Below, one piece after another: positions 30,064 through 30,708 of a stretch of DNA of 64,000 nucleotides (the first letter of the stretch is position 1; the number at the start of each line of letters is the position of its first letter). The translations under genes were made by a program, and so were the position numbers. The stretch comes from Pseudalkalibacillus berkeleyi. GTDB lineage: Bacteria > Bacillota > Bacilli > Bacillales > Fictibacillaceae. The DNA lies in contig NZ_JAKIJS010000001.1 of the NCBI RefSeq assembly GCF_021608225.1, positions 2,790,001 to 2,854,000 of the forward strand, read 5' to 3'. The notes beneath the pieces are model-generated. The model had not been told where the DNA came from. It did not search any database and was given only the letters and a program-made list of their open reading frames with translations.

Positions 30064-30708
30064 TTAACAACCATTAATGTCGCAGCTGAGTCCTTCTTCT
30101 GTCGTGTTTTCAGCTTTTTGTTGTTTTTCAATTTCTGAATCAATAATTTGCGTGAGCCGATCTGCTGGATATAGCCCTTGTAACTTACGATCACCGATAA
30201 AGAATGTCGGTACTGCCCGGATATCTTGCTCAGCAGCTTCATTTAGTGCTGCCTTATGAACATCCTTATATTTTCTTGATTCTATCGCTTCTCGGAATTC
30301 CTCTGAATCTAATCCAACTTCTTTGGCAAGCTCGACAAGTACATCCACATTACCAAGGTCTTTCCCTTCTACGAAAAAGGCTTTGAGCATGCGGTGATTG
30401 TATTCATTCGCTTTATCCTTCCCTTTCGCAAACTGAAAACCTTCGAATGCAAGGTGGGTCCGTGGTTGTACGGGTGGGAAATTCATCTCCACACCAAGCT
30501 TTTCTGATAACGGCTTAACAGAATGCTTCCACGCGTTTTGTATATAATCTGAATCGGGATCTATTGGTGGGACCGGTTCAGGTCGCAGTTCAAACGGCTT
30601 CCATTCAACTTCTATATCCTTACCTGCCATTGCTTCTTGTAGCGGAGCCTCCGCTAAATAGCAAAATGGTCAAACATAATCTGAATAGATCTGTACTTTT
30701 AAAGACAT
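30064..30708 (-). CDS. DsbA/FrnE-family oxidoreductase with in-frame TGA at the first catalytic Cys (candidate selenoprotein)
   Basis: Thioredoxin-fold thiol oxidoreductase of the DsbA/FrnE (YwbO-like) family, 214 codons. The ATG at 30706-30708 follows AAGGAGG by nine bases. Codon 13 (30670-30672) is TGA; the protein reads MSLKVQIYSDYV, then TGA, then PFCYLAEAPLQ. Family members have VCPFC here, so TGA replaces exactly the first Cys of CxxC. The remaining 201 codons are intact, with a VPTFFIG cis-Pro loop, the motif LAFEGFQFAK and a C-terminal SCDINGC. The ATG after the TGA (30630) has no ribosome site, so restart is unlikely. A SECIS-like hairpin follows. Selenocysteine insertion is my favoured reading; a recent nonsense mutation is the alternative. 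Confidence 0.85.
30640..30656 (-). promoter_or_regulatory. SECIS-like hairpin after the TGA codon
   Basis: On the minus strand TAGCGG-AGGCT-CCGCTA folds as a 6-bp stem with a 5-base loop (or 7 bp with loop GGC). It begins 13 bases after the TGA and a loop G lies 20-21 bases after it. As I recall, bacterial SECIS models want a small loop with an early G some 16-37 bases past UGA; this fits. Lies wholly in coding sequence. Confidence 0.6.

Follow-up and report, generated by a model that had tools for sequence, protein, structure and literature searches.

A predicted selenocysteine-containing FrnE-type oxidoreductase of the DsbA family in Pseudalkalibacillus berkeleyi and other Bacillales

In a stretch of 64,000 nucleotides of the Pseudalkalibacillus berkeleyi genome (hereafter the window), the minus-strand gene at 30708-30064 is almost certainly a genuine selenoprotein gene, predicted from its sequence to encode a FrnE-type member of the DsbA family with selenocysteine (Sec) at residue 13. 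An earlier note, made from the DNA letters, had proposed this FrnE/DsbA gene as a candidate selenoprotein gene, and its proposal is supported by a conserved TGA codon, a hairpin downstream of it and a complete set of sel genes in the genome.

Results

The gene and its product

The frnE/dsbA-like gene (30708-30064, minus strand) has 214 codons if TGA is read as Sec, and its translation is MSLKVQIYSDYV-U-PFC...SCDINGC. By eye, a ribosome binding site, aaggagga, lies upstream at 30724-30717 (minus strand); the gene then begins with ATG at 30708-30706 and runs through 12 sense codons (ATG included) to an in-frame TGA at 30672-30670 (minus strand), i.e. residue 13, the first Cys position of the CPFC motif. 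CCA TTT TGC follows directly, and the catalytic motif thus reads VUPFC, with UPFC at residues 13-16. From the TGA, 201 sense codons lead to a TAA at 30066-30064; the last of them form a C-terminal CXXXXC tail, CDINGC (30067..30084, minus strand), a motif with a role proposed for FrnE of Deinococcus radiodurans. An intrinsic-terminator-like hairpin of 14 pairs with a T-rich tail lies behind the stop, at 30054-30023 (minus strand). The arrangement described in the earlier note, i.e. ribosome site, ATG, 12 codons, TGA and then PFC, with 201 intact codons after the TGA up to a stop and a terminator, is therefore present as claimed. In the genus, AGGAGG lies upstream of six of seven frnE genes and AAGGGG upstream of the remaining one, L014 (by eye). 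A wrbA-like neighbour adjoins frnE in six of the seven genus loci fetched, including the window's own; the exception is L016, where a search of the 1.5-kb flank found no wrbA.

The gene product matches the Pfam family PF01323 (DSBA) at 3.8e-33, with 115.3 bits against a cut-off of 25.6 and U in the UxxC motif. When solved structures were searched with a profile of 20 relatives, FrnE came first (5cnw, 6e-25); this and other PDB entries named FrnE protein we take to be the D. radiodurans protein. Structures of 2-hydroxychromene-2-carboxylate isomerase rank below FrnE in the same search (2imd, 4.1e-11), and this identity was rejected. An AlphaFold2 model of the product has a mean pLDDT of 90.6, with values below 50 for residues 204-214, and in it residue 13 directly precedes the first helix (14-18), as expected of the catalytic residue of a thioredoxin fold. 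No signal peptide was recognized by eye at the N-terminus, MSLKVQIYSDYV. The protein is thus closest to FrnE, has an N-terminal UPFC, lacks a signal peptide and ends in a CDINGC tail, all of which places it in the FrnE subfamily. As far as the available text of PMC8945050 goes, it is like D. radiodurans FrnE (DR_0659) in its CP(W/F)C-type site, its predicted cytoplasmic location and a C-terminal CXXXXC present in many members; that protein, however, has Cys where the Sec position lies here, and its solved chain has 260 residues as against 214.

None of the NCBIfam models reached its cut-off with the gene product, and therefore automated annotation probably truncates TGA-type frnE genes or flags them as broken. 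The DsbG-like Rcas_1661 family (seleno)lipoprotein model, NF041057, which shares the thioredoxin fold and is listed as a UxxC selenoprotein family, was rejected at 38.5 bits against a cut-off of 190. In its own genome, the gene was found to have no other full-length homologue, but only a match of 22% identity over query residues 95-179.

TGA and Cys forms among homologues

An frnE gene was found in seven of eight genomes of the genus, the window's own included, and all seven carry TGA at the catalytic codon; in the eighth no orthologue was found. The six other orthologues are 68-83% identical to the window's gene, and their frames are open otherwise. A pattern of Cys and no hairpin in relatives of the same species, with other decay in this copy, which the earlier note had set against its own proposal, was not seen at the level of the genus: six of six other orthologues have TGA in open frames. 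Across 34 genomes of the family, a match at 1e-50 was obtained in 31, with TGA in 12 (seven of the window's genus and five of a sister genus, Fictibacillus), and the family loci L187 and L188 are Cys forms without the hairpin.

Altogether 109 frnE genes were collected, 28 with TGA (the window's own included) and 81 with Cys at the catalytic codon. Of these genes, 31 came from the genus and family searches and 78 of a possible 80 from a genome collection. L056 and L062 were left out as lying on the same contigs as L017 (G004) and L018 (G003), and L032 as being the same gene as L018, whereas L038 and L120 as well as L037 and L112 were kept though identical as proteins. Hosts of the TGA form are Bacillota, four Planctomycetota MAGs, one Acidobacteriota MAG and a record named Pseudomonas sp. 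ISL-84. In the frnE tree, the gene of the latter (L084) clusters with Bacillus pinisoli, and judging from this the record is perhaps mislabelled or a mixed assembly. An order-wide draw of 150 genomes gave a match at 1e-55 in 30 and 27 further loci that were read, 13 with TGA and 14 with Cys, counts that overlap with those of the 109 genes because three of the 13 TGA loci match genes of that set over 54 nt.

Of the 28 TGA genes, 15 encode a CX4C pair among their last 25 residues, and the tail Cys pair is therefore not essential to the Sec form. On a quick frnE tree, nine changes of the Sec label are needed, four of which are forced by starred branches; the tree gives no direction of change between Sec and Cys, since it was rooted arbitrarily and contains one very long row, L019. 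In G045 and G051, a Sec-type copy of frnE was seen beside a Cys-type one. In Bacillus sp. CECT 9360 (G183), a TGA copy and a Cys copy share a contig (L186, L163), and L059 (G051) represents this same contig, with 48 identical nt from the catalytic codon. Another genome, G100, has two TGA-type copies (L185, L165), with a second TGA inside the L185 match.

The SECIS-like hairpin

Bacterial SECIS elements (bSECIS) are hairpins that follow closely on the 3' side of the UGA and whose apical loop begins with a G. In the window, a SECIS-like hairpin of 17 nt, TAGCGGA-GGC-TCCGCTA, lies at 30656-30640 (minus strand) and can form seven pairs with the loop GGC or six pairs with the loop AGGCT; it starts 13 nt after the TGA, just where a hairpin of 6-7 bp had been described in the earlier note. 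The 45-nt stretch containing it folds at -13.2 kcal/mol (z -2.17; three of 200 shuffles as good), which, taken alone, is modest support.

Comparison across homologues is more telling. The core GCGG-N5-CCGC, 18 nt from the T of TGA, occurs in all 28 TGA forms as against six of 81 Cys forms (Fisher 1.6e-20, n=109, a p-value that, like the other one given below, overstates because the genes compared are related), and so the hairpin does go with the TGA form. Two of these six Cys genes are one and the same gene of Fictibacillus phosphorivorans (L038, L120); the core can occur without Sec, since it is found in the four other Cys forms. In each of the 28 TGA genes, the four core pairs are formed and the apical loop is GGC, GGT or GTT. 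The codons that make up the stem are equally uniform, with Ala encoded by GCG, Glu by GAG and Pro by CCG in 28 of 28 TGA genes, whereas among Cys genes with the same amino acid at the site these codons are used in 16 of 53, 22 of 67 and 26 of 53 cases, respectively. With the core invariant among the 28 TGA genes, there is hardly any compensatory change to count and stem covariation is thus uninformative. In the order-wide draw of 150 genomes, the strict hairpin was present in 12 of 13 TGA loci and none of 14 Cys loci; the thirteenth TGA locus, L169, differs by one base, and by eye a G-U pair is still possible there.

These patterns bear on two other readings of the TGA. The codon could act as a true stop, after which translation would resume from Met27 (ATG 30630) and yield a 188-aa protein without the active site. 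An ORF from this ATG does exist (30630-30064) and would probably be picked by automated annotation, but by eye no good ribosome site precedes it, as had been said of the post-TGA ORF in the earlier note, protein-level conservation covers both the motif around the TGA and the 12 codons upstream of it, and the hairpin codons are fixed in TGA forms only; we regard such a restart as very improbable. Even less credit is due to a nonsense mutation or sequencing error that would have turned an ordinary Cys-type frnE into a pseudogene. Such an origin would fit with Cys at the catalytic codon of 81 of the 109 collected genes, yet the same TGA is present in seven genus genomes and many others, in frames otherwise open and with the hairpin at a fixed offset. 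A chance TGA is excluded because the codon occurs in seven of eight genus genomes and in 28 of 109 genes, all 28 of which have the hairpin core at the same offset.

Selenocysteine machinery and its co-occurrence with the TGA form

All four genes that the earlier note had suggested looking for, selA, selB, selC and selD, are present in the genome. selA is found at E 5e-167, selB with 353 bits against a cut-off of 242, and the tRNA-Sec (selC) with 59.9 bits against a gathering score of 47, ARAGORN also reporting tRNA-SeC(tca); selD (L010:11028-12080) itself has an in-frame TGA, in SKGGUGCKIG, and the four genes are grouped within about 10 kb. This TGA of selD (GGUGCKIG) recurs in ten of ten sel clusters fetched from relatives (L147-L156). 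By eye, an inverted repeat like GGTC-N5-GACC follows the TGA of selD. Three matches similar to formate dehydrogenase alpha subunits were found in the genome, none with a TGA and none over the model's cut-off.

Between selB and selD (L010:7546-10993), the cluster of the window's genome also contains genes for a GT4 glycosyltransferase and a PhnDEC-type ABC transporter. The glycosyltransferase weakly matches SenB, a selenosugar synthase (87.7 bits, with the cut-off at 300), and the PhnD-type binding protein also matches a model for a putative selenate transporter (184 against 250). This GT4-PhnD-PhnE-PhnC set is present in eight of the ten family sel clusters fetched (L147-L153, L156); no such set was found in the selB-selD interval of L154 and L155. 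From these matches, the genes may serve selenium uptake and a selenosugar step.

Outside the family, selA was found over cut-off in 17 of 17 TGA genomes, as against nine of 31 genomes that yielded Cys forms only and in which an unlisted TGA copy is possible (Fisher 1.2e-6, kinship ignored). This test drew on 50 of the 80 collection loci, i.e. all 16 TGA loci outside the family, 33 Cys loci taken by rank (L058-L104) and L120, which was picked for its hairpin; L091 was left out, and L061 lies in a TGA genome. Inside the family selA is without discriminating power, because it is present in 32 of 34 genomes. Alkalihalobacillus sp. YIM B00296 (G004), with an estimated contamination of 5%, has selA and tRNA-Sec over cut-off twice each, which reflects either a mixed assembly or a further sel cluster.

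Two exceptions are telling. In Pseudalkalibacillus salsuginis (G003; L018/L062), frnE keeps both TGA and hairpin, and in its 20-contig draft, estimated to be 99% complete, neither selA nor selB over cut-off nor a tRNA-Sec over the gathering score was found; this is either a recent loss of the sel cluster or a contig missing from the assembly. Conversely, in Fictibacillus phosphorivorans (L038/L120) the catalytic codon is TGT and the hairpin is still there with one changed loop base, AGCGGAAGCTCCGCT, which from the sequence looks like a recent Sec-to-Cys change, in this presumed direction, that left a fossil-like hairpin behind. Sec and Cys versions in Fictibacillus can be closely related, L038 and L042, for instance, being alike in 176 of 210 residues.

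That frnE can outlive the machinery, as the sister species P. salsuginis suggests, raises the question of whether the gene is a relic in the window's organism as well, with the machinery present but read-through of frnE now poor. We consider this hardly credible, as its own genome (G000) has the gene with hairpin and ribosome site intact, along with intact machinery genes. A reading of TGA as Trp was rejected in view of the Sec genes in the genome and of Cys at this codon in homologues.

Discussion

As a selenoprotein gene, frnE would operate as follows. SelB loaded with Sec-tRNA(Sec) would recognize and bind the hairpin that closely follows the UGA and would insert selenocysteine at residue 13, giving a presumably cytoplasmic FrnE-type disulfide oxidoreductase of the DsbA family with the active site UPFC. 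The selenolate of Sec13 would be the attacking residue, linking enzyme and substrate in a mixed selenenylsulfide that Cys16 would by analogy resolve, and the C-terminal CXXXXC pair would then probably reset the active site, as has been proposed for D. radiodurans FrnE. Both this catalytic cycle and the substrates of Sec-FrnE are thus pictured by analogy. In the available text on the D. radiodurans protein, FrnE acts as an isomerase and a reductase, its active site is proposed to be regenerated by the C-terminal CXXXXC, and a mutant with disrupted frnE shows sensitivity to cadmium as well as diamide (PMC8945050).

A more far-reaching idea is that Sec-FrnE acts as a three-part relay of Sec13, Cys16 and the CX4C pair and is also a main reason why Pseudalkalibacillus-type bacteria keep the Sec machinery. 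Besides SelD, frnE is the only selenoprotein found in its own genome among the genes looked at. Against such a role, however, G001 has selA and selB without a match to frnE, and many genomes of the family with a Cys-type FrnE keep selA. We therefore find the idea, taken as a whole, unlikely.

The kind of protein is already known, with DsbA-like UxxC selenoproteins described in the literature from 2006 or earlier; in their available text, PMC13188914, PMC9312934, PMC1794560 and PMC2398784 list such proteins, and a survey of 2016 counts 45 of them in 41 organisms (PMC5029168). With these the window's protein shares the Pfam family PF01323, the position of Sec in UxxC and bacterial Sec decoding. 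The members named in the available parts of these publications are deltaproteobacterial, clostridial, marine and Asgard ones, with FrnE of Bacillales not among them, and a paper of 2006 mentions three selenoproteins of three families in Bacillales that are unnamed in its main text, whereas its supplementary lists may name some. Supplementary lists aside, our literature search, which covered sources in part, found no report of a Bacillales or FrnE selenoprotein. As to newness, then, the reading of the earlier note as a selenoprotein stands, but DsbA-like UxxC selenoproteins as such already appear in reviews; the additions made here are the FrnE subgroup, its distribution across Bacillales and the Sec/Cys pairs with hairpin relics.

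Overall, the complete set of selenocysteine genes is seen here in Bacillus-like bacteria, together with a predicted Sec in an enzyme's active site. For a Cys member of the same family, D. radiodurans FrnE, structures and assays are available, so that what Sec offers over Cys could be measured directly. The Sec and Cys versions in Fictibacillus, the fossil-like hairpin of one of them and a Pseudalkalibacillus apparently without the machinery would moreover form a natural series for studying how selenoproteins are gained and lost.
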